Below are positions 3,060 to 19,041 of a stretch of DNA of 39,368 nucleotides, piece by piece; within the stretch, counting starts at the first letter, position 1, and every line of letters begins with the position of its first letter. The DNA lies in contig JAFURC010000025.1 of NCBI GenBank assembly GCA_017472015.1, positions 1-39,368 on the forward strand, written 5' to 3'. The stretch comes from Bacilli bacterium. Its GTDB lineage: Bacteria > Bacillota_I > Bacilli_A > RF39 > UBA660. The notes under the pieces are model-generated. The model was not told the origin of the DNA, searched no databases, and worked only from the letters and a program-made list of their open reading frames with translations. Made by a program: the position numbers and the translations under genes.

Positions 3060-4832
3060 TTAATTTTCAAAATCATTACCAACCTCAATCTTTATACTTT
3101 TTTTAGTATTTAATTCTTTAATAAAATCAAAAAAATTTGAAAATTGCATACTAATTGTATCTTGACTACCATAAACTCTAAAACTAATAGTATTATTTTC
3201 TTTTTCTTTATCACCAATTATTATAGTAATTGGATTTTTCTTTATTTGACTATCACGCATTTTATAACTTAATTTTTCATTCCTTTCATCAAGTAAAACT
3301 CTAAATCCTTTTTCATAGAATAATTCTTTTAATTCTTTAGAATAATCTAAGTGATAGTCGTTATTAACTGGAATAATATTTAATTGAACTGGAGATATCC
3401 AAAATGGTAAAGCCCCTTTAAAATGTTCTAATAAAATTCCAATAAATCTTTCAAGAGAGCCGTAAATTGTTCTATGAACCATAACTGGTCTTTTCTTAGT
3501 TCCATCCAAGGAAATATAAGTTAAATCAAATTTTTCTGGTAATTGATAATCTAATTGAATTGTTCCTGTTTGCCATTCTCTTCCTAAGGCATCAACCATT
3601 TTCAAATCTATTTTAGGTCCATAAAATGCTCCATCACCAGGATTTAAAATCCATTTATTAGGAAATTTTTCATCTAAAATTTTAGTTAAATTCTCTTCGG
3701 CTTCATTCCATTTATTAATATCTCCCATATAATTATCTGGTCTTGTTGATAAGTATGGTGTGAATTTTAAACCAAATATATCATAAAAATAAGTAGCAAT
3801 ATCTAAAATACTTGAGATTTCCTCAAATATTTGTTCATGAGTAATAAAATTATGCGAATCATCTTGATGAAATACTCTTACTCGAAGTAATCCATGCAAG
3901 GATGCTGAATTTTCATTTCGATGAATGGCATCAACATCATTAAATCTTAAAGGTAAATCTTTGTAACTTCTAATTTTATTTTTATATACTAAAATTGAAT
4001 TTGGACAACTCATTGGTTTTAATGCTTGATAGTTATCATCACCTTCTTCAAATATGAACATATCATCTTTATAATGATCCCAATGACCTGATGTTTTCCA
4101 TAAACTACTACTATTTAAAAGTGGTCCTGAAAATTCTTGATAACCTCGGTTTTCATGTTCGTATCTCCAAAAATCAACTAAAGTATTATAAATTTTTAAA
4201 CCTTTTGGAAGCCAATAAGGCATCCCAGGAGCAGTTTCTGAAAACATAAATAAATCAAGTTCTTGTCCAAGTTTTCGATGATCACATTTTTTCGCTTCTT
4301 CTATTAAATTAAGATAATTATTTAAATCCTCTTCTGTTTCAAAACAAATTCCATATATTCTTTGAAGCATTTTATTTGAAGAATCACCTTTAAAATATGC
4401 TCCACTTACTTTTAGTAATTTAAAATATTTTAATTCTTTAACACTTTCAACGTGTGGTCCTTTGCATAAATCTGTAAAATCTCCTTGGGTATAACAACTA
4501 ATAATTGTTTCTTCATTATTCATTTTAGATAATAAATCTAATTTATAAGGATCATTTTTAAACATTTCTTTGGCTTCTTCTAAACTTATTTCTTTCCTTA
4601 TAATTTTCTTACCATCTTTAGATATTTTTTTCATTTCTTTTTCAATTAAAACTAAATCGGTATCTCTTAATACTTCATTTCCTAAATCAACATCATAATA
4701 AAAGCCACCTTCAATTACTGGTCCTACCCAAAATAGAGCATCTTTATATAAATGTTTTATTGCTTGTGCCATTAAATGTGCACATGAATGATTCATAATA
4801 CTTAATCTTTCATTTTCTTTAATATTAATCAT
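3060..4832 (-). CDS. thrS: Threonyl-tRNA synthetase lacking the N-terminal TGS domain
   Basis: A class II synthetase that charges tRNA-Thr. At 590 residues it is about 50 shorter than usual because it begins directly at the editing domain, with no TGS domain. The editing-site residues are kept: HSCAH (H15, H19) and CKGPH (C123, H127). The catalytic domain has motif 2 (GLLRVRVFHQDDSH), zinc ligands C276, H327 and H453, and motif 3 (GSLERFIGILLEHFKGALPFW region). The anticodon-binding domain begins near 480. The start is well supported by GAAGGGAG seven bases upstream, and the short gap to the next gene leaves no room for a lost TGS region in frame. No T-box leader fits in the 63-bp intergenic gap. 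Confidence 0.97.
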   Translation of the reverse strand: MINIKENERLSIMNHSCAHLMAQAIKHLYKDALFWVGPVIEGGFYYDVDLGNEVLRDTDLVLIEKEMKKISKDGKKIIRKEISLEEAKEMFKNDPYKLDLLSKMNNEETIISCYTQGDFTDLCKGPHVESVKELKYFKLLKVSGAYFKGDSSNKMLQRIYGICFETEEDLNNYLNLIEEAKKCDHRKLGQELDLFMFSETAPGMPYWLPKGLKIYNTLVDFWRYEHENRGYQEFSGPLLNSSSLWKTSGHWDHYKDDMFIFEEGDDNYQALKPMSCPNSILVYKNKIRSYKDLPLRFNDVDAIHRNENSASLHGLLRVRVFHQDDSHNFITHEQIFEEISSILDIATYFYDIFGLKFTPYLSTRPDNYMGDINKWNEAEENLTKILDEKFPNKWILNPGDGAFYGPKIDLKMVDALGREWQTGTIQLDYQLPEKFDLTYISLDGTKKRPVMVHRTIYGSLERFIGILLEHFKGALPFWISPVQLNIIPVNNDYHLDYSKELKELFYEKGFRVLLDERNEKLSYKMRDSQIKKNPITIIIGDKEKENNTISFRVYGSQDTISMQFSNFFDFIKELNTKKSIKIEVGNDFEN

Positions 4833-6039: not shown

Positions 6040-6840
6040 CTATTCAACTTTTTCTAATAATTCATTTATCGGAATAAATTGACTTGTTTCGGTTAATTTA
6101 TGTTCGTAATATTTATCATTAATCCAATATGCTTTAAATCCATATCCTTTTTCAAACCCATGTTCTCTAGCATCACTTGTAATAATTCTATATTTATCAT
6201 CAATAATTTCAATTGCTGAACAATTAGACATCATTATCCCTATAAGATTGTTTCTTTTTAGTTGATCTTTCGTTGAATTATATCTTCCTTTTTCATCACA
6301 ATGAGGAGTAAAAAAAGCATTTATCCAATTTAAGCATTCAACAATTTCAAAAGTTTTTTCTCCATTTTCTTCTTTACTTAAACAATCTGAATTACAAGAA
6401 TTAAACCAACATACTGCACCAGCAGAAACTCCACATATTACTTTTCCATTATCAAAGGCTTCTCTTAACAACATATCAATTTTTTTTTCTTTCCAAATAT
6501 TAATCATGGAAGATGTGTCACCACCACCTTCATATATTATATCCGCCCATTCAGTTAAAAACTTAACTTTTTCATGATCATCTAATTCATTAGTTTTTAT
6601 ATCTTTACAACTACAACCAAATTTATCTCCATATATTTTTTTCATTGTTTGAAAGTAACTTTCTTGAATATCTAAGGAAATTGCCATTGAATGAGCTAGA
6701 AACAAGAAATTAGGCTTTTCTTTTTTAGTTAACCTAATTATTTCTTTATCCATAGGTTCTGTTTCATATGGTGCATATTTACCATTTTCTAAAAGTCTTC
6801 CATTTTCTCCTCCAGCTATAGCAACTATTTTTCTGCTCAT
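6040..6840 (-). CDS. Peptidase S51 (peptidase E / cyanophycinase-like)
   Basis: A serine hydrolase of the S51 fold. The nucleophile lies in CGVSAGAVCWF, the expected GxSAGA motif, and a glycine-rich stretch (IYEGGGDTSSM) precedes it. Relatives cut Asp-X dipeptides (peptidase E) or beta-aspartyl bonds (cyanophycinase). It has no signal peptide and should be cytoplasmic. The start is uncertain: in-frame ATGs lie at 6861, 6852 and 6840. I chose 6840 because the protein would then begin MSRKIVAIAGGENG, as family members do. An AAAGGA lies 12 bases upstream, a rather long spacing. The first ATG has no ribosome binding site. It follows trpS closely and probably shares its transcript. Confidence 0.82.
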   Translation of the reverse strand: MSRKIVAIAGGENGRLLENGKYAPYETEPMDKEIIRLTKKEKPNFLFLAHSMAISLDIQESYFQTMKKIYGDKFGCSCKDIKTNELDDHEKVKFLTEWADIIYEGGGDTSSMINIWKEKKIDMLLREAFDNGKVICGVSAGAVCWFNSCNSDCLSKEENGEKTFEIVECLNWINAFFTPHCDEKGRYNSTKDQLKRNNLIGIMMSNCSAIEIIDDKYRIITSDAREHGFEKGYGFKAYWINDKYYEHKLTETSQFIPINELLEKVE

Positions 6841-6871: not shown

Positions 6872-7975
6872 TTATTTACTCTTTATCTTATAATGATGAA
6901 CATATTCTTCTTTAAAATCATCATTTAGAAAATAATCAATACCAATTGCTTCTTTTATCTTATTTAAAATACAATTTGTATAATCGATACTAAATTTTGT
7001 TCCTTTTTCTAATATTTCAAATATATATTCTTTGTTTTTTTCAAATTCGTCTCTTCTAGTTCTAATCGGTTCTAGTATTTCTTGCATAACATTATTTAGA
7101 AATTTTTTTATTTTAACATCACCTAATCCACCACGTTCATAATGTTCTTTTAATTCTTGCAAATTTTTATATTCTGGTAAATATTTTTTAAAATGTTCAT
7201 CAGTTGCAAAGGCTTCTAAATATATGAATACTGGATTATTTTCTGTAACTCCAGGATCTTCAACCCTTAAATGATTAGGATCGGTATACATTCCCATTAT
7301 TTTTTTCTTAATTGTTTCACTTGAATCTTTTAAATATATACAATTCCCAAGTGATTTACTCATTTTTGTATTCCCATCAGTTCCAATAAATCGATAACAG
7401 ACTTCTTTATCAGGTAAAATGGCTTCAGGCTCTATCAAAATATTAGTTTTATAAATTCTATTGAAAGTTGATACTATTTCTCTCGTTTGTTCTATCATTG
7501 GCAATTGATCAACTCCAACCGGAACATATTTAGCCCCAAAAGCCGTGATATCTGCCGCTTGACTAATTGGATATGTCATGAACCCAACTGGTAAATTATT
7601 TTCAAATTTACGCATTTTTATTTCATTTTTTATAGTGGGATTTCTACCTAGTCTTGCCATTGTTACTAAATTAGAATAAAACATAGGTAACTGATAAAGT
7701 GCCGGAATTTGACTTTGTAAAAGAAATATCGTTTTATTTGGATCAAGTCCAACCGCTAAATAATCTAACATTACTTCCATGACATTTTCTCTTATTTTTT
7801 TAGGATTATCATAATTATCAGTTAAAGCCTGTAAATCTGCAATCATCACAAACTGTTGATAATTTCCTGTTTCTTGTAATTCAACTCTTTTCCTTAATGA
7901 TCCAACATAATGACCTATATGCAAAGGACCAGTTGGTCTATCTCCTGTTAATATAATATTTTTATTTTCCATCAT
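6872..7975 (-). CDS. trpS: Tryptophanyl-tRNA synthetase
   Basis: Class I synthetase that charges tRNA-Trp. The ATP-binding signatures are PLHIGHY (residues 17-23) and KMSKS (204-208). The segment GFMTYPISQAADITAF is typical of bacterial TrpRS. At 367 residues it is somewhat longer than the usual 330-340. AAGGAGAG lies five bases before the first of two adjacent ATG codons. It sits 32 bp downstream of the PLP decarboxylase, with no promoter or terminator visible between them, so it is probably transcribed from the regulated promoter at 9403-9491. A tRNA-Trp gene lies just beyond that promoter, at 9528. Whether this is the only TrpRS of the cell cannot be seen. Confidence 0.96.
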   Translation of the reverse strand: MMENKNIILTGDRPTGPLHIGHYVGSLRKRVELQETGNYQQFVMIADLQALTDNYDNPKKIRENVMEVMLDYLAVGLDPNKTIFLLQSQIPALYQLPMFYSNLVTMARLGRNPTIKNEIKMRKFENNLPVGFMTYPISQAADITAFGAKYVPVGVDQLPMIEQTREIVSTFNRIYKTNILIEPEAILPDKEVCYRFIGTDGNTKMSKSLGNCIYLKDSSETIKKKIMGMYTDPNHLRVEDPGVTENNPVFIYLEAFATDEHFKKYLPEYKNLQELKEHYERGGLGDVKIKKFLNNVMQEILEPIRTRRDEFEKNKEYIFEILEKGTKFSIDYTNCILNKIKEAIGIDYFLNDDFKEEYVHHYKIKSK

Positions 7976-8007: not shown

Positions 8008-9399
8008 TTATTTTTTTATTAAAATTTTATTAGTCTCCTTATTCTTTTCTTTAGATAAATCTATAACTAATTGTTTAATTATATCCTTTGAATGGAATGG
8101 AAAAATAATTACATGAGCATATTCTTTATCAGTTCCTACAAATGTTGCTAACTGATATTTCTTACACAATTCATCACTTGGTTTTTCTATTAAAAATATA
8201 TTTCCTTTCGCATCACCTTGTATAAAATTAATACCATAATTATTTAATTCTTGAATAAAGTATTCTATATTTTCATCATATTCTAATTCAGAACTTCTTT
8301 TAAATACCTCTTTTATTTGTTGATAAGCAGAATATGGATTAAAATCTCTTGATCCTGATAGAGTCGTATCATTTTGACCTATATAATCAACATAATTATT
8401 TATCTTTTTTCTTTTAAAAATCAAAATTCCATTACTTCTTGTAATACCTAAATATTTATGAAAACTAACTGAGATAGAATCAACATCTATTTCTTTAAAA
8501 TTCAATTTTGGAGCATTTAATTGATTACTTGGTATTCCACCATATAAAGCAGCATCTACATGAATATAATTTGGAATTTCTCTTCTTTCTAATTCTTTTT
8601 TTATTAATTCTATATCATCAATTATTCCACCTTTAGTTGTTCCAAATGTTAAAAATATAATAGCGGGAACTTTTTCTTTTTGATAATTATTTACTACTTC
8701 ATTGATAAGTAAATCAACATCAATTTTTCCATTTTTAGTTTTTATTACTTTATTTTTTTCTGGATTACTATTACATTTATTAATACTATAATGAGCCTCT
8801 TCGGAATAATATAAATAAGCATTTGGATATTTTTTTAAACCCAAATTTATTCCTTGAATATTTCCTTCGGTTCCACCTGTTGTTATATAGCCGCAATAAT
8901 CATCAATAGTAAGATTAAGATTCTCTAATATTAATTTAACTATTTCCATTTCCATTTTTTTATTATCCATTTGATAATTTCCTTGTTCTTCCGGACTACC
9001 ACAATTATTCATAAAAAATAGTTCTGTTTCTAGTTTTTTCAAATATGAAACTGTTGCTGAACCCACGAGCATATTAGCAGGATATCCAAACATAAAATCA
9101 CGCTTTTCTTTAATCTCTGCTATCTCCTTTTTTACACTTTCAATATAACTTTCATCTTCCCTTTGCCATCGTTTTATCTCTTCACTAGTTTTACCTTTTT
9201 TCTTTAAATCGTTATAATCAAGTAAAGAACTTAGTTTCCATATAAAGAAATCAGATATTTCTCCTTGCATTTTTAATGCATTAACAATTTTTTTAATTTT
9301 TTCAATATCACTTTCTAATAGTGAAGTGTCATTAATAATTTTATTAAAATATAAATTATTAAATTCAAATAAATATTTCAAATTATCTAAATCATTCAT
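8008..9399 (-). CDS. PLP-dependent group II decarboxylase, histidine-decarboxylase-like
   Basis: 463 residues. From about 103 it follows bacterial PLP-type histidine decarboxylases: GYPANM, the NNCGSPEEQGNYQMD stretch, TTGGTEGN (173-180), the ring-stacking His in EAHYS (H203), the aldimine Asp in HVDAAL (D282), the PLP lysine in SFHKYLG (K315), and SGSRDFN. The substrate may be His, Ser, Trp or another amino acid, since closely related enzymes differ. An N-terminal extension of about 100 mostly helical, charged residues is not typical of the 378-residue histidine decarboxylases. The open frame continues upstream to 9579, but that part runs through a tRNA gene. GGAGG six bases before the ATG at 9399 fixes the start. 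Its promoter module is shared with the GNAT operon. Confidence 0.88.
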   Translation of the reverse strand: MNDLDNLKYLFEFNNLYFNKIINDTSLLESDIEKIKKIVNALKMQGEISDFFIWKLSSLLDYNDLKKKGKTSEEIKRWQREDESYIESVKKEIAEIKEKRDFMFGYPANMLVGSATVSYLKKLETELFFMNNCGSPEEQGNYQMDNKKMEMEIVKLILENLNLTIDDYCGYITTGGTEGNIQGINLGLKKYPNAYLYYSEEAHYSINKCNSNPEKNKVIKTKNGKIDVDLLINEVVNNYQKEKVPAIIFLTFGTTKGGIIDDIELIKKELERREIPNYIHVDAALYGGIPSNQLNAPKLNFKEIDVDSISVSFHKYLGITRSNGILIFKRKKINNYVDYIGQNDTTLSGSRDFNPYSAYQQIKEVFKRSSELEYDENIEYFIQELNNYGINFIQGDAKGNIFLIEKPSDELCKKYQLATFVGTDKEYAHVIIFPFHSKDIIKQLVIDLSKEKNKETNKILIKK

Positions 9400-9402
9400 A
9401 TT

Positions 9403-9491
9403 TTTCCTCCTGTTGGCTTTATAATAAACGAGAAAAAACAAAAAATAAAATACTAATTTTTTATACGCATTATAAAATTTTTCTATAATAA
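9403..9491 (-). promoter_or_regulatory. Promoter/operator module B in front of the decarboxylase
   Basis: This 89-bp block aligns without gaps to module A at 11436-11524. Shared parts, in transcription order, are TTATTATA, then 36 bases on the identical 16-mer TAGTATTTTATTTTTT, then after exactly 17 bases ATAAAGnCAACAGGAGG. Two dyads are seen: ATTATA-N9-TATAAT at 9469-9489 and ATAAAAA-N6-ATTTTAT (6 of 7 pairs) at 9445-9464. Paired AT-rich dyads upstream of a promoter suit a LysR-type regulator, and one is encoded 2 kb away. That link is inference. Confidence 0.6.
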
Positions 9492-9498
9492 AATTAAA

Positions 9499-9528
9499 AA
9501 AAATATTACATTTATATAACTTATAAAT
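9499..9528 (-). terminator. Weak AT-rich hairpin after tRNA-Trp
   Basis: On the - strand, ATTTATA, AGTTA, TATAAAT form a 7-bp AT-only stem immediately after the encoded CCA, followed by GTAATA and eight T. It may end the GNAT-M20-tRNA transcript before the decarboxylase promoter, but the stem is weak. Confidence 0.35.
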
Positions 9529-9601
9529 GGCAAGGGTAATAGAAATCGAACCTACATCTATGGTTTTGGAGACCATCATTCTACCATTAAACTATACCCC
9601 T
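9528..9601 (-). tRNA. tRNA-Trp (anticodon CCA)
   Basis: All four arms fold on the - strand. The acceptor is AGGGGTA/TACCCTT with discriminator G and an encoded CCA. The D arm is GTTT-AATGGTA-GAAT. The anticodon arm is ATGGT-CTCCAAA-ACCAT with anticodon CCA. The variable loop has four bases and the T arm is GTAGG-TTCGATT-TCTAT. Length is 74 with CCA. Discriminator G73 suits tRNA-Trp. The pair 53-61 is G-U because base 61 is U rather than the near-invariant C, and 49-65 is also G-U, so the T stem is weak. It lies 31 bp after the M20 gene on the same strand. Confidence 0.93.
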
Positions 9602-9632
9602 AATTAAACAAGTAAATTTTCAATAATAATTA

Positions 9633-10697
9633 TCATAATTTTTTTAGGTACATTAAATACAAATTATATAAATCATCTAAACTTTTAATATCAATATACT
9701 CATTTTCAGAATGTAAGTTTCCACCACTGGCATTCATTAATATACATGGTATATTTTTAGAATAGAAAAATCTTCCGTCTGATGCACTCTCACATTGAAA
9801 ATATTTTATTTCCTTTTTAAAATAATCTTTATAGGTATCTAAAAACAAATTATATAAAAAATTATTCTTTATAGTTTGAAAAGCATCACCTGATGCTAAT
9901 ACCTCTACTAAAAATTTATCATTAAATTCTTTTATACAATTTAAAATATCACTTTTCTTATCCTTTACAATATGTCTTATATCAAATATTGCATAACATT
10001 TATGTGGTACTTTATTAATTAAATTACCACCACTTATTTTCGATATATTTATACTAGTTTTATAATCAAATGATGATTTAGGTAATGGATATTTTTTTAT
10101 CAAATAGTTATATAATTCAATTATTTTTTTTATAGCATTATCACCATTCCATACTTGTGAGGAATGTGCTTCTTTTCCTTTATAAGATACTTTTATTTGA
10201 AGAACTCCTTTTTCTTCATCAATTATTTGAAAATTATTTCCAGCATCTGGTACTATAGCGATTTTACAAGAATAGTTTAAATTATCTAAAAAATACTTAG
10301 TTCCATTAAAACCTCCACGCTCTTCATCAGAAGTAAGTAATAATCCTACACTAATATTAAAATTGTTATCTTTAAGTAATTTTAACATAACTGCTACGTG
10401 TCCTTTCATATCAAAAGAACCACGACCATACAATTTATTTTCAATTATTTTTGGTTTAAAATCATCATCTTTAGCATCAACTACATCAATATGTCCAACA
10501 AATAATACATCAACTTCTTTATTATTAGTATTAGCAATATACATGCTTGTATCTCCATTACAAGAAAATTTTTTGATGTACAAATTAGTATTTTTGTAAT
10601 AATTTTCAATATAATTATATATTTTATCTATCTCTTTATAATTGGGATAAATTGTTTTAAACTCAATTAAATCATTTAAAATATCAATCATTTTCAT
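9633..10697 (-). CDS. M20 family metallopeptidase (deacylase/dipeptidase-like)
   Basis: A 354-residue di-zinc hydrolase with a complete set of active-site residues: H69 and D71 in VGHIDVV, D96 in SFDMKGH, E125/E126 in TSDEERGGF, D151 in VPDAGNN, and a late His in GGNLHSENEYI. The lid domain with KGKEAHSSQVWNGDNAI lies about 165-275. The VPDAG form of the fifth ligand differs from the GEPTD of the other M20 protein in this window, so their substrates probably differ. Its ATG overlaps the TGA of the GNAT gene (ATGA), which points to translational coupling and a shared pathway. An amide or N-acyl bond cleavage role is likely from the family. The substrate is unknown. Confidence 0.87.
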   Translation of the reverse strand: MKMIDILNDLIEFKTIYPNYKEIDKIYNYIENYYKNTNLYIKKFSCNGDTSMYIANTNNKEVDVLFVGHIDVVDAKDDDFKPKIIENKLYGRGSFDMKGHVAVMLKLLKDNNFNISVGLLLTSDEERGGFNGTKYFLDNLNYSCKIAIVPDAGNNFQIIDEEKGVLQIKVSYKGKEAHSSQVWNGDNAIKKIIELYNYLIKKYPLPKSSFDYKTSINISKISGGNLINKVPHKCYAIFDIRHIVKDKKSDILNCIKEFNDKFLVEVLASGDAFQTIKNNFLYNLFLDTYKDYFKKEIKYFQCESASDGRFFYSKNIPCILMNASGGNLHSENEYIDIKSLDDLYNLYLMYLKKL

Positions 10698-11395
10698 TTT
10701 TTTAATTCCTTTCTCTTTATATCTTTTTCAATAGCAAGTTTTTCTGGATTTAGTATAATTACTATTGATTGTGCATCATGTGGATTAATTTTTTCAAATA
10801 TTAAATCTATATTTTCATTTTTCTTTGTTTGCTGAATTTTTATATCAGGATATGCATTTTTACATATTAAATTCTCATCACTATTTGAAATAAAAGGATT
10901 GGCTTTGCATAATTTGATTATTTCATCTGGTATTACACCTGTTTCATTTGGATAATAATCATATATATCATTTAAACTAATAAAACTATTAAAACATCTT
11001 GGATTATGAGTTTTAGCAGTAATAACATCAGGATTTGTTAAAAATCTTGCATGATCAATTATATCTTTACTTAATCCATATCCTTGAACTTCTGGACTTA
11101 ATATAATTCCATGGCAATGTAAATTTTTTATGTTATTATAACTGACAAAATAATCACAAACTAAAAATCCCTTTATAATTGGTAGATTATCAGACGATTT
11201 TTCAATAATAAACAACTTTAAATAATTATCATTACCAAATATATGTTCTCTCACATCTTCATAATCTGTTGAAAAATGAGCCTTTAAAGCTATATTTAAA
11301 CAACTTTTTATAATATAATCTTTAAAATATTTCTCAATCATTTTATATTCAGAAATTAAATAATCATATTCAACTATTAAATATTTATCCTTCAT
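10694..11395 (-). CDS. GNAT-like N-acyltransferase
   Basis: A 233-residue protein. The central segment HCHGIILSPEVQGYGLSKDI has the GNAT beta4-alpha3 pattern, with QGYGLSK (104-110) as the acyl-CoA pyrophosphate loop, and the following ITAKTHNPRCFNSFIS resembles the beta5 Asn/Phe region of that fold. About 70 residues after the core are not recognised. No membrane segment is seen. The gene starts inside the stop codon of a 12-codon leader ORF and ends inside the start of the M20 gene, so leader, acyltransferase and hydrolase form one tightly coupled unit behind promoter module A. The family transfers acetyl or longer acyl groups to amines, which would suit a partner amine-forming decarboxylase. 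That pairing is inference. Confidence 0.72.
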   Translation of the reverse strand: MKDKYLIVEYDYLISEYKMIEKYFKDYIIKSCLNIALKAHFSTDYEDVREHIFGNDNYLKLFIIEKSSDNLPIIKGFLVCDYFVSYNNIKNLHCHGIILSPEVQGYGLSKDIIDHARFLTNPDVITAKTHNPRCFNSFISLNDIYDYYPNETGVIPDEIIKLCKANPFISNSDENLICKNAYPDIKIQQTKKNENIDLIFEKINPHDAQSIVIILNPEKLAIEKDIKRKELKK

Positions 11396-11430
11396 TTATA
11401 TTCCCCCATTCCTTTTTTTTCAAAATTCAT
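11392..11430 (-). CDS. 12-residue leader ORF overlapping the GNAT start
   Basis: Encodes MNFEKKGMGEYK behind the strongest ribosome binding site of the locus (AGGAGGGAG, seven bases before the ATG). Its TGA stop overlaps the GNAT ATG as ATGA. The GNAT start itself has GAATGGGGG upstream, only partly a ribosome binding site, so reinitiation from this leader may drive it. No run of a regulatory amino acid is present, so attenuation is not suggested. Confidence 0.5.
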   Translation of the reverse strand: MNFEKKGMGEYK

Positions 11431-11435
11431 ATAAA

Positions 11436-11524
11436 CTCCCTCCTGTTGCCTTTATATTAATTGATAACTAAGAAAAAATAAAATACTAAAATTTTATAAT
11501 AGATATAAAAAAATTTTATAATAA
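11436..11524 (-). promoter_or_regulatory. Promoter/operator module A in front of the leader-GNAT-M20 operon
   Basis: Gap-free counterpart of module B at 9403-9491. It has the identical 16-mer TAGTATTTTATTTTTT and ATAAAGGCAACAGGAGG at the same spacing. A perfect dyad ATAAAAT-N6-ATTTTAT lies at 11478-11497. Upstream lies a second imperfect dyad (TTATAAAATTTTTTTATA). It sits directly downstream of the LysR gene's terminator. Control by that LysR protein is inference. Confidence 0.6.
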
Positions 11525-11548
11525 AAAAACTAGCTAAATAACTAGTTT
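11523..11548 (-). terminator. Hairpin terminator after the LysR gene
   Basis: On the - strand AAACTAG, an eight-base loop, and CTAGTTT form a perfect 7-bp stem (11527-11548) followed by a run of T. It separates the ligase-LysR transcript from promoter module A. Confidence 0.7.
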
Positions 11549-11569
11549 AAAGTAAATAGATAAAGTTTA

Positions 11570-12481
11570 TTATGATTTAACTTCATCATTTATAATATTC
11601 CCTTTTTTTAATAATTGATAATAATTATGCTCTTTAATAAAATCGACAACAACTTTTATTTTATTATTTTCTAATCTTTTAATATATGAAATAAATAATT
11701 TGGATTTAGGTAACTCAATACTTGATTCAAGTTTTATTAAACTACCATTTTCTAATTCTTCTTCAATTACGGCTTTTGGAGAAATTCCAATTAAGTTATT
11801 ATCTTTCATTTTATTTAACATAAGGGGAGTTGATTGAATAGTTAAGTAATTAAAAGATGGATATTTTTTTTGAATTTCATTTGATATTCGATTTCTTTTA
11901 ATAATGCAAATAGGATTTTTCTTTAAATAATCAATATCAATTACTTTACTTTTTGAGTTTTTATAAGTAGATATGGTTGTAAAAAATATAGTATCATCAG
12001 CATATATTAAATTTGATACATAATCACCATCTAATTGATACTCATCAATTAATAAATCGATTTCCTTATTAACAAGTTTTTTCATTAATTCTTTTGAAGG
12101 TGCTATTACAAATTCAATTTCAAGTTCTGGATAAATTTTATTTAATTCACTTATATAAAAAGGTAACATTTTATTAGAAACTGCACTTCTAACTCCTAAT
12201 ATAACTTTTCCTGATATATTTTCATTATCCAAAATTATTGAATTAAAAATATCGAAAATACTTTTTAATTTATCATAAATTATTTTACCATCTTCAGTTA
12301 AAAGTATTTTATTTTTATTTCTAGTAAATAATTTTTTTCCAAGTTGATTTTCAAGAGTTTTGATACTATAACTTAAGGAAGGTTGAGAAATCATTAAGGA
12401 TTCTGCTGCTTTTGTAAAACTATTATATTTGGCTACTTCATAAAAATATTTGTATAAATTCAAATTAATATTAGTATTCAT
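11570..12481 (-). CDS. LysR-type transcriptional regulator
   Basis: 303 residues. The N-terminal winged helix-turn-helix is clear (YKYFYEVAKYNSFTKAAESL.., then MISQPSLSYSIKTLENQLGKKLF), followed by the linker helix and a two-lobed effector-binding domain from about residue 90 (SGKVILGVRSAVS.. onward). The effector is not evident. It begins one base after the ligase stop codon, with AAGGTGA inside the ligase gene, so the two are co-transcribed. Its position between the ligase and two matching operator modules suggests it controls the GNAT and decarboxylase units, probably in response to a substrate or product of the pathway. Confidence 0.93.
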   Translation of the reverse strand: MNTNINLNLYKYFYEVAKYNSFTKAAESLMISQPSLSYSIKTLENQLGKKLFTRNKNKILLTEDGKIIYDKLKSIFDIFNSIILDNENISGKVILGVRSAVSNKMLPFYISELNKIYPELEIEFVIAPSKELMKKLVNKEIDLLIDEYQLDGDYVSNLIYADDTIFFTTISTYKNSKSKVIDIDYLKKNPICIIKRNRISNEIQKKYPSFNYLTIQSTPLMLNKMKDNNLIGISPKAVIEEELENGSLIKLESSIELPKSKLFISYIKRLENNKIKVVVDFIKEHNYYQLLKKGNIINDEVKS

Positions 12482-15419: not shown

Positions 15420-15444
15420 AATAACTACCCCAAATTTATGACAT

Positions 15445-15473
15445 ATTTTACTATAATAAGTTCATATTGTCAA
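15445..15473 (-). promoter_or_regulatory. Sigma-A-type promoter of the ligase-LysR operon
   Basis: On the - strand TTGACA, exactly 17 bases, then TAAAAT. This is among the best promoters in the window and has no copy of the dyad modules, so the ligase and regulator are probably expressed constitutively. Confidence 0.75.
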
Positions 15474-16166: not shown

Positions 16167-16195
16167 ATTATAACACAAATTAATCTAAATTGCAA
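16167..16195 (-). promoter_or_regulatory. Promoter of the Cys4 protein gene
   Basis: On the - strand TTGCAA, 17 bases, TATAAT, with TGT before the -10 (extended -10). The -35 overlaps the last codons of the upstream gene. Confidence 0.7.
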
Positions 16196-17099
16196 ACTTT
16201 TTATTTATCCAATCAATTCCAACTATATTAACATGAGTTTTAATAACTAAATAAATTTCATATAATAAATATTCATAATCGTCTTGATATTTTGTTATTT
16301 CAAGGATTTTTTCTTCTTTTAATTTACCACTTAAAACTTGATCATAAATATCAAAATAGTAACTAGGAAATAACATTCTAATATAGAAATAAATATAATC
16401 AACATTAGTCATCTTAATTCTTTTTAAATGATTAATAATTTCCATAACATCCATTTTCTTCCTAAAAAAACATGATTTAAAATATTCAGCAAGGTCTCTT
16501 ACTCTATAATCTATTATTAAATTAATTGGATTATAAAAATCAATTAAGTTATCATTTGCAAGTACTCTTTTATGACATATACTAATACTATTATTTTCTA
16601 AATTTAAATATTTTAAATAGCTAATAGCATTTTCTGTTAAACCAATATAATAATAAATAGAATTATAAATTATTTTATACTTATGCATTAAATGATTAAT
16701 AGAATATTCTATATTATCAATTTTCATACTCCATAAATATAACCAATTAGTTCTATTTAATAAATTTATATTAGTTATTCTTGTATTAAAATTAATAACT
16801 TCTTTTAAAGTAATTTGTTTTTTATCATGAATATTTAAAAGTACTAAAACATAATAATTATTTTTCCAATTAGTTAAAATATTTAAATCTTTATTTAAAA
16901 TAATTTTATTAATAGTATAATTATTATAAAGCATATAAGTATTTAAATTAAAAATATCATTTAATTCATTTAAAGAATTAGAATATCTATATAAACAAAA
17001 ATAATTATTTTGATAATAAAAATAATAATTCTTATCTATCATATTAATTCTATCAGTTATTATATAGTAATAATAATTTAATAAATCTTTCATAGGCAT
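16185..17099 (-). CDS. YutH-like protein (CotS/APH kinase fold, spore-coat associated family)
   Basis: 304 residues, unusually rich in Tyr and Asn. Three segments fit the YutH branch of the CotS/aminoglycoside-phosphotransferase fold: YYYIGLTENAISYL near 150, a degenerate catalytic region ISICHKRVLANDNL followed by NLIIDYRVRDLAEYFK, and YIRMLFPSYYFDIYDQVL near the C-terminus. The classical HGD catalytic loop reads CHKRV, so kinase activity is doubtful. In Bacillus YutH is linked to spore coat, and yutI (a NifU-domain protein) is its neighbour. A NifU gene lies about 1 kb away here, which supports the call. No ribosome binding site is seen before either ATG (17099 or 17093). It is divergent from the next gene. 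Confidence 0.55.
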   Translation of the reverse strand: MPMKDLLNYYYYIITDRINMIDKNYYFYYQNNYFCLYRYSNSLNELNDIFNLNTYMLYNNYTINKIILNKDLNILTNWKNNYYVLVLLNIHDKKQITLKEVINFNTRITNINLLNRTNWLYLWSMKIDNIEYSINHLMHKYKIIYNSIYYYIGLTENAISYLKYLNLENNSISICHKRVLANDNLIDFYNPINLIIDYRVRDLAEYFKSCFFRKKMDVMEIINHLKRIKMTNVDYIYFYIRMLFPSYYFDIYDQVLSGKLKEEKILEITKYQDDYEYLLYEIYLVIKTHVNIVGIDWINKKFAI

Positions 17100-17134
17100 C
17101 TATTAAAGTTTATGATTTTAATTTAATTTTATAA

Positions 17135-17163
17135 TTGACAATTAATCTATTATACGTTAACAT
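17135..17163 (+). promoter_or_regulatory. Promoter of the 277-residue protein gene
   Basis: TTGACA, 17 bases, TAACAT, followed 24 bases later by the start codon with AAAAGGA upstream. It lies in the 88-bp gap shared with the divergent YutH-like gene. Confidence 0.65.
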
Positions 17164-17187
17164 ATTACCGAAAAAAGGATTGGTTGT

Positions 17188-18021
17188 ATGCAATTAAGTG
17201 ATAAAATATATGAAAAAGAATATCAAAAAATAAATTCAATTCATGATTTATTAATTTATTTATATAAAATGTTAATCGGTGAATATACAAGTGGTAATAA
17301 AGATTTTGATGAAATGTTTAAAAACTTTAATACAAGAAAAAAGATGATTGGAAGATTTTTATTAGAAAGTTATGAAAATGGTTATAGAATAAATGATAGT
17401 AATTACTTAGACATTTCTAATTCAAACTTTTTAATAGATAATAGTAAAAACTGGTTATATGATAGATCTATTAATGTATCTAGTAATTCTTTTTGTAAAG
17501 TTTATTTTGGTATTAAAAAAGAAGATTATTTTAAAATAATAAAATCAATCGTGAAAATAATTGAAATAGTTAAAAATTATAATAATGGTCTTGGACAATG
17601 TAAATTTAGAACAATTCCATCTAATAACTCAGTTATTTTAAGATTTAAGGAAAAAGAGGCATTTATAACATTCATGAATATTATTCAAGATGACAAAGAT
17701 ATTTTAAATTCTCTTAGTAAACCTAATTTGTTTATTCCAAATATTGATGGTGTTGGAGTATCAACTGATTCAGGTGGAGCTTATACATTTGTTGTTGAAA
17801 TACTTTTAACTAATTATTTATTTTTATGTGTTGATAACAAACAAGAACCAACTTTAGATGATTTTACAAGATTTATTTTAAATACAGATTTCATGAAAGT
17901 TTTATTAATTGCTAAAATGTGTAATTATGATGAAGAAATTGCTTATGATTATAAAGAAAATTTAGTTGGAAAAATAAATGGTGAAGATGATAAAAAATTA
18001 ATAAAAATGATGTTTAGGTAA
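17188..18021 (+). CDS. Uncharacterised protein with a weak HopA1-like pattern
   Basis: 277 residues, soluble, with no signal peptide. An N-terminal helical region (1-95) is followed by an alternating alpha/beta part: CKVYFGIKKEDYFKIIKS, then CKFRTIPSNNSVILRF, then PNIDGVGVSTDSGGAYTFVVE. The order 'VYF..K.., KFR...NSVILRF, GVGxSxDxGGAYTF' resembles the domain called T3SS effector HopA1 family, which includes phosphothreonine/serine lyases of class V lanthipeptide pathways. This is only a pattern match by eye and may be wrong. It is followed 51 bp later by the NifU-domain gene on the same strand, so the two may be co-transcribed. Confidence 0.6.
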   Translation: MQLSDKIYEKEYQKINSIHDLLIYLYKMLIGEYTSGNKDFDEMFKNFNTRKKMIGRFLLESYENGYRINDSNYLDISNSNFLIDNSKNWLYDRSINVSSNSFCKVYFGIKKEDYFKIIKSIVKIIEIVKNYNNGLGQCKFRTIPSNNSVILRFKEKEAFITFMNIIQDDKDILNSLSKPNLFIPNIDGVGVSTDSGGAYTFVVEILLTNYLFLCVDNKQEPTLDDFTRFILNTDFMKVLLIAKMCNYDEEIAYDYKENLVGKINGEDDKKLIKMMFR

Positions 18022-18072
18022 TTGTATTAATTATAATTTTAAGTTAATATTATTAAAGAAAGGAATGTTATT

Positions 18073-18297
18073 ATGCAAGAAAAAATTGAAAATGTACTTG
18101 ATAAAATAAGACCATATTTACAAAGTGATGGTGGTGATATTGAATTTGTTAAGTTTGATGATGGAGTTTGCTATTTAAAGTTTTTAGGTCATTGTTCTAC
18201 TTGTCCTATGATGTTGATGACTTTAAATGATTTAGTTAAAGATAGTTTAATTAATGAAATTGATGAAATAGTTGATGTTAAGTTAATTACTGAATAA
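18073..18297 (+). CDS. NifU C-terminal domain Fe-S scaffold protein
   Basis: 74 residues, a lone NifU-like domain as in Bacillus YutI and the C-terminal part of NfuA, though shorter. It has the family start (IRPYLQSDGGDIEFV) and the cluster-binding CxxC in GHCSTCPMM. Two subunits share a 4Fe-4S cluster through these Cys pairs and hand it to target enzymes. Possible clients here are the radical SAM protein at 964 and perhaps the Cys4 protein. AAAGGA lies ten bases before the ATG, and a strong terminator follows the stop codon. Confidence 0.93.
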   Translation: MQEKIENVLDKIRPYLQSDGGDIEFVKFDDGVCYLKFLGHCSTCPMMLMTLNDLVKDSLINEIDEIVDVKLITE

Positions 18298-18319
18298 AAG
18301 ATTTTTTAATCTTTTTTTT
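18296..18319 (+). terminator. Strong hairpin terminator after the NifU gene
   Basis: AAAAGATT, loop TTTT, AATCTTTT form a perfect 8-bp stem beginning in the stop codon, followed by a run of T. Confidence 0.85.
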
Positions 18320-18360
18320 TATTTTTTTAAAAATTATGATAAAATGGTTATGGTGATGTT

Positions 18361-19041
18361 ATGAAAGATAAAATTAAAAGTATAGGATTATTTATATTAT
18401 TGTTTTTATTATTTTTATTTAGTGATTTAATCTATATTTTACCAATGGATTTATTAAATATTGATTATAATAGTTTAAGTTATAATATACAAACTTTATG
18501 CTCATTGATTTCTTCTTTAATACTAGGTATTATTATTATTTTAACGTATAAAAAATATTTAAAAGAAAAGTTAATTGATTATAAAAAGAATTTTAATGAA
18601 TATATGGAAATAGGTATGAAATTTTGGTTTTTAGGTCTTATCGGGATGAGTGTTACAAATATTTTAATAGGAACATTCTCTCCAGTTCAAGAAGCTAATA
18701 ATGAAGTTTTAGTTCAAGAAATGTTAAAACAAGCTCCATTCTTAAGTTTTTTAAGTGCAGCTTTTGTTGCTCCTTTCTTGGAAGAGATGTTATTTCGAAA
18801 AAGTCTTGGAGATATCTTTAAAAATAAAAAATTAATGGTTATCATGTCTGGACTTATATTTGGACTATTGCATGTTATCTTTAGTTTACAAACTCCTTGG
18901 GATTTATTATACACGATTCCTTATGGATTATTAGGAGCCTCTTTTGCTTATATGTTATATAAAAAAGATAATGTATTTATTCCAATTACTTTCCATGTTG
19001 TACATAATGGATTATTAACTTTAATTTCGATTTTATTATGA
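18361..19041 (+). CDS. CPBP/CAAX-family intramembrane metalloprotease
   Basis: 226 residues with about six to seven membrane segments (first about 8-28). The catalytic signatures are EEMLFRKS (E141, E142, R146), FGLLH with H171, and FHVVHNG (H212, H215), the three motifs of the CPBP (Abi) group. Relatives process prenylated proteins or peptides in the membrane and often protect against self-made bacteriocins. No bacteriocin gene lies next to it here. The ribosome binding site is weak (GGTGA). It ends with TGA, eight bases before the next gene, so the two are co-transcribed. Confidence 0.9.
   Translation: MKDKIKSIGLFILLFLLFLFSDLIYILPMDLLNIDYNSLSYNIQTLCSLISSLILGIIIILTYKKYLKEKLIDYKKNFNEYMEIGMKFWFLGLIGMSVTNILIGTFSPVQEANNEVLVQEMLKQAPFLSFLSAAFVAPFLEEMLFRKSLGDIFKNKKLMVIMSGLIFGLLHVIFSLQTPWDLLYTIPYGLLGASFAYMLYKKDNVFIPITFHVVHNGLLTLISILL

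Follow-up and report, generated by a model that had tools for sequence, protein, structure and literature searches.

A promoter module shared by two gene units and its predicted control by a neighbouring LysR-type regulator in a Bacilli gene island

LysR-type transcriptional regulators (LTTRs) and their promoters are well known. In the pltR/plt cluster of Pseudomonas, a LysR-type regulator encoded within the cluster controls a small-molecule pathway from a 22-bp lys box at -74 to -53, with a T-N11-A site around -65 (PMC3382589). At the BenM/CatM promoters benA and catB of Acinetobacter, an upstream T-N11-A site is combined with a second site over the -35 (Site 2 of BenM overlaps the -35; PMC6628147), and catB has no consensus -35. 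Inducer shifts the LTTR tetramer between subsites (PMC11739112). In amine clusters of lactic acid bacteria, a tyrosine decarboxylase gene lies beside the aminoacyl-tRNA synthetase gene tyrS (PMC3315439).

The window analysed here is a stretch of 39,368 nucleotides from a Bacilli bacterium (genome G000), in which an unusually clear footprint of this promoter type was found. As in plt, a LysR-type regulator gene is present in the cluster and a T-N11-A dyad is centred near -65; as at catB, a consensus -35 is missing. In contrast to plt, the dyads are A/T-only and three of them overlap, one block is shared by two separate promoters, a ligase gene precedes LysR on the same strand, and binding is predicted. 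Half-sites are ATAC-N7-GTAT in the BenM/CatM promoters and of TATA type here. A decarboxylase gene again adjoins an aminoacyl-tRNA synthetase gene, but unlike in the tyrS clusters this is TrpS next to a histidine/serine-decarboxylase-like gene (its PDB relatives are serine and histidine decarboxylase), with an LTTR-type promoter and a ligase-LysR head; by analogy, the TrpS and tRNA-Trp neighbours recall the enterococcal tyrS-decarboxylase clusters (PMC3315439). The two copies of the block in the window, modules A and B, are interpreted as LTTR-controlled promoters that are bound by the neighbouring LysR protein and form a local regulon, most likely with inducer-dependent activation of two units. 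We assign this reading a probability of roughly 85%. Coordinates are collected in Table 1.

Table 1. Features of the window and modules of the sister islands.
Feature	Position	Strand	Basis or remark
Module A, predicted promoter of group II decarboxylase gene	9403..9491	-	matches module B 68/89, gap-free
Module A upstream dyad TATAGA-N5-TTTATA incl. T-N11-A	9471..9487	-	in register in 7 copies
Module A overlapping dyads TTATA-N5-TATAA and ATAAAA-N8-TTTTAT	9445..9475	-	register conserved; spans about -60 to -30
Module A -10 hexamer TATTAT	9421..9426	-	TATAAT-like, same column in 7/7 copies
Module A ribosome-binding site AGGAGG	9406..9411	-	sequence
Module B, predicted promoter of 233-aa protein/M20 unit	11436..11524	-	between LysR gene and cargo
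Module B upstream dyad TATAAA-N5-TTTATA incl. T-N11-A	11504..11520	-	7-copy comparison
Module B overlapping dyads TTATA-N5-TATAA and ATAAAAT-N6-ATTTTAT	11478..11508	-	A/B alignment, 7-copy comparison
Module B -10 hexamer TAATAT	11454..11459	-	7-copy comparison
12-codon leader ORF MNFEKKGMGEYK	11392..11430	-	sequence; putative function only
Hairpin and T run directly before module B	11526..11550 (limits approximate)	-	fold -7.3 kcal/mol, z -2.4
LysR-type regulator, 303 aa	11570..12481	-	Pfam HTH_1 2.3e-19, LysR_substrate 1.3e-9; orthologues in G015, G016, G588
AMP-binding (ANL) ligase-like protein, 978 aa	12483..15419	-	Pfam AMP-binding 6.1e-18; upstream partner of LysR
233-aa protein, first full gene after module B	10694..11395	-	acetyltransferase-like by eye only
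M20 (ArgE/DapE-type) amidohydrolase, second gene after module B	9633..10697	-	Pfam Peptidase_M20 1.3e-24
tRNA-Trp(CCA) gene, between M20 gene and module A	9528..9601	-	
Group II pyridoxal-phosphate decarboxylase, first gene after module A	8008..9399	-	Pfam Pyridoxal_deC; start codon 9399
Module C, G015	L075 10194-10282		in front of Imp-YgjV membrane protein gene
G016 modules (two)	L076 12762-12850 and 11365-11453		
G588 modules (two)	L109 9363-9451 and 9964-10052		

Read on the minus strand, modules A and B were matched without gaps at 68 of 89 positions (76%); the highest agreement among other 89-mers of the window, on either strand, was 50 positions (A and B out of register set aside). The 90 bp on either side of the two modules gave no more than background agreement, 29/90 and 33/90, and the module is therefore a bounded block. 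The original prediction had described two gap-free, nearly identical 89-bp modules with differing flanks; gap-free alignment and differing flanks were borne out, and "nearly identical" was too strong. Its shared 16-mer is present inside a longer shared 17-mer, TTAGTATTTTATTTTTT, and both modules finish in TATAAAGnCAACAGGAGG, the common end it had named. The dyad ATAAAAT-N6-ATTTTAT, claimed for both modules, is exact in B and has one arm mismatch in A. A third dyad further upstream, TATARA-N5-TTTATA, was absent from that account and is a key element. The ligase promoter, which had been said to lack the module, does lack it, in sequence and by matrix scoring, and is an ordinary TTGACA-17-TAAAAT near 15444-15472.

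Genome counts were obtained by pattern scans of the window's genome (1.33 Mb). Using TTATAN5TATAAAAN2TTAGTATTTTATTTTTT with up to 3 mismatches, only modules A and B were matched in this genome, and no match was found in 57 relatives; this first, A/B-specific pattern was too strict, and sites in sister genomes were missed. A looser 28-base pattern gave one extra match in the window's genome, with 3 mismatches (C38:12939), inside an ORF for a 246-aa protein. The full module fits only two places in the genome. The genome-wide search that had been proposed thus yielded A and B as the only full sites, and a module widespread before unrelated genes, named beforehand as the refuting case, was looked for genome-wide and not found.

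The regulator encoded at 11570-12481 scored above the Pfam cut-offs for both LTTR domains (HTH_1 69.5 bits, LysR_substrate 38.2 bits). About 400 family genomes were searched for it, and close orthologues (49-53%) were found in three other genomes only, namely G015 (MAG RUG14259) and G016, which are congeners of the window's genome, and G588, which belongs to another genus. The orthologue was present in 3 of 17 genus genomes; beyond an E value of 1e-100, the 386 family genomes yielded it in G000 and G588 only. When the four LysR proteins were combined in a profile search, neither these 386 genomes nor the other genus members nor 391 relatives of G588 gave another close orthologue. All four orthologues have the same recognition-helix stretch, LMISQPSLSYSIK.

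The G015 and G016 islands consist of two flanking genes, the ANL ligase and LysR, followed by a differing gene set. The same flanking genes, for a 302-304-aa protein and a CPBP-like membrane protein, were seen in three species (window 16185-19041, L075 17270-19227, L076 17277-19254), so the island occupies one fixed chromosomal place and its cargo is variable. The G015 and G016 islands, on fetched contigs, were scored with a matrix made from A and B only; one position in G015 and two in G016 scored +13.9 to +22.9, and all others -6 or less. All three stand directly before genes, in G015 for an Imp-YgjV membrane protein and in G016 for a histidine-phosphatase-family protein and for a group II decarboxylase. 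Together with A and B, these sites share TATARAN5TTTATAN6ATARAAN4AGTATTTTAT. A scan of the family (386 genomes) for this pattern, allowing 3 mismatches at most, gave 35 matches. In this family-wide scan the G588 island was located by the DNA motif alone; it holds two ANL ligases, the LysR orthologue (49%), an Imp-YgjV protein, a 342-aa protein and an M20 amidohydrolase, and the seventh site (9964-10052) lies immediately after its LysR gene. The two ligase-like genes of G588 are arranged in tandem upstream of LysR (L109 10998-15641), with about 29% identity to the window ligase in either case.

A module thus accompanies the LysR orthologue within the same island in 4/4 genomes that have the orthologue, and in three of these four islands it is the first feature to follow LysR. 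In G015 it lies about 2.5 kb from LysR, and a second LysR, fused to radical SAM, intervenes. This 607-aa ORF (L075 10873-12696), directly following the island LysR, combines a complete LysR (HTH_1, LysR_substrate) with a radical SAM domain, an unusual fusion. The seven modules of the four islands were also scored with leave-one-genome-out matrices. Scores were 44.0 and 38.4 for modules B and A (best non-module position of the window -1.6), 58.1 in G015, 56.6 and 28.4 in G016, and 21.6 and 11.8 in G588; the best non-module position per island ranged from -1.6 to -12.5, against +11.8 to +58.1 for modules.

Across six sites, 32 of 89 columns were invariant, compared with about 0.6 expected from composition. 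From 5' to 3', the module contains TATARA-N5-TTTATA, an overlapping TTATA-N5-TATAA-type dyad, ATARAA-N8-TTTTAT, 18 variable bases, a -10 and a ribosome-binding site. T-N11-A lies in register within the first dyad in 7/7 copies. The -10 hexamers occupy one fixed column (TATTAT, TAATAT, TATTAT, TATTAT, TATTGT, TATATT and TACAAT), and the distance from the first base of the AGTATTTTAT arm to that of the TATAAT-like -10 is 28 bases. The transcription start was placed 7 bases after the -10 hexamer, at 9414 for module A and 11447 for module B, on the basis of the -10 alone; relative to it the centre of the first dyad falls at -65 and that of the third at about -41. The third dyad, near the -35 zone, has 4 to 8 of 10 symmetric pairs across copies, and a TTGACA-like -35 was absent from all seven copies. 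At 23% G+C, A/T dyads are easily read into sequence, but their conservation is not explained in this way; a simple promoter/terminator scan was uninformative in such A+T-rich DNA. With a T-N11-A dyad near -65 of the putative start, a second site over the -35 and a linked LTTR gene, the seven copies have, as judged from sequence, the layout of an LTTR-regulated promoter.

Hairpins with T runs are found just before modules B, C, E and G, and no such signal was seen before module A, which follows a tRNA gene; the hairpin before B probably serves as terminator of the ligase-LysR unit. These hairpins point to transcription starting at the modules rather than to a leader. An RNA leader (riboswitch, T-box or attenuator) in place of a DNA-binding site might be suspected from the TrpS, ThrRS and tRNA-Trp genes in the neighbourhood and from the 12-codon ORF after module B. 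However, the -10 lies downstream of the dyads and leaves a leader of about 15 nt, terminator-like hairpins precede several modules, and no Rfam family except tRNA reached its gathering score in the window, which makes an RNA element highly improbable. The 12-codon ORF is served by the strong AGGAGG of module B and its stop overlaps the next ATG (ATGA); translational coupling or a leader peptide is possible. The TrpS gene (6872-7975) adjoins the decarboxylase and tRNA-Trp genes; a second TrpS copy is present at G000:C2:6992-8032, and the window TrpS is 62% identical to TrpS from a distant family of the class, compared with 55% to the other copy of the genome. Besides TrpS, each genus island has a different aminoacyl-tRNA synthetase: ThrRS in the window (3060-4832), HisRS in G015 (L075 6193-7494, by eye, with tRNA-His at 6093-6168) and MetRS in G016 (L076 5176-6834, by eye).

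The module goes with the regulator and not with the cargo genes. The G015 decarboxylase, 55% identical to that of the window, has no module in front, nor has the decarboxylase relative of G062. When the decarboxylase was tried as a guide to the module, using relatives in G015, G062 and a Clostridia bin, no core match was found near the decarboxylase at any of the three loci, and the module therefore does not travel with it. For the 233-aa protein, no Pfam or NCBIfam match was obtained, and no orthologue was found in viral contigs, plasmids or genome contigs. PADLOC found nothing. Modules C (G015) and E (G016) have 77 of 89 positions in common and stand before different genes, with flanks agreeing at only 43/90 and 26/90, so the block does move. 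A general promoter, or a dispersed repeat whose copying has no regulatory meaning, could move in this way, but the rest of the window's genome is free of the module, with two copies only, and the conserved columns are the dyads and the -10 while the stretch between them varies; this explanation is barely credible. Rather, the module looks like a promoter block that is reused for whatever cargo an island holds. Cargo across the islands comprises decarboxylases, M20 amidohydrolases, putative acetyltransferases, membrane proteins, tRNA synthetases and tRNAs. Tentatively, and with somewhat more doubt than belief, the locus may be a plug-in metabolic locus of an undescribed kind, in which a conserved ANL ligase and LysR head is joined to a transplantable, mobile LTTR promoter cassette and to species-varying cargo.

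Specificity was examined at other LysR genes. In the family-wide motif scan, a LysR gene lay within about 1.5 kb in 9 of 29 matched loci outside the window, which include four orthologous ATPase-LysR operons and so represent about six independent events; among control loci, a non-random convenience set fetched for other reasons, the figure was 0/42. This comparison is supportive, not decisive. Around more distant LysR genes, 18 of 19 loci had no such core and one had a similar core, which argues for site specificity. The ATPase/kinase-like and LysR operons in four other genomes (L111, L112, L113, L116) have a similar dyad block upstream, probably the own site of that operon's LysR. Because related LTTR operons of the family have similar sites, the half-sites are not private to the island LysR, and a different LTTR or an unrelated regulator might bind the module. 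One candidate for sharing the site would be another LTTR of the window's genome (C26:4840, 32%), though none of the sites was found in its 8-kb surroundings. Against another regulator stand the 4/4 co-occurrence with the island LysR orthologue, the similar core at just 1 of 19 loci around other LysR genes, and the position of the module first after the LysR gene in 3/4 islands, and we consider it improbable. A single regulator, most simply the LysR protein, had been proposed originally, and this is supported by genome uniqueness, co-occurrence, LTTR geometry in 7/7 copies and the tracking of the regulator rather than the cargo.

In the favoured model of control by the island LysR, the protein would be made from the ligase-LysR transcript, under its ordinary promoter, and would bind the module as a tetramer. 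For one dimer, the LTTR recognition site would be the upstream T-N11-A dyad, with its centre near -65; the other would occupy the overlapping dyads near -54 and -41, as activation subsites covering the place of the missing -35 hexamer. RNA polymerase would start from the TATAAT-like -10 and give a very short leader with AGGAGG. As there is no usable TTGACA, both promoters would most likely need the regulator and an inducer from the island's own chemistry, and unit B, with the 233-aa and M20 genes, would be switched on together with the decarboxylase unit A. The same LysR might act at the same site mainly as a repressor over the -35 zone, with inducer lifting the block, given that the dyads overlap the -35 position and that LTTRs can repress via an RBS and a secondary site (PMC11739112). 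A bare promoter should, however, be weak when no copy has a TTGACA-like -35; this favours activation and makes repression unlikely.

For a Bacilli lineage that is unstudied (a congener is a rumen MAG) and in which regulation is hardly known, an operator, a regulator and a regulon are predicted. The motif is a search handle and by itself led to an island of this type outside the genus. An orphan ligase-LysR pair is tied to likely target genes, and this narrows the field in which product and inducer of the island have to be sought. If the cassette is truly transplantable, it would show a route for placing new genes under one regulator.
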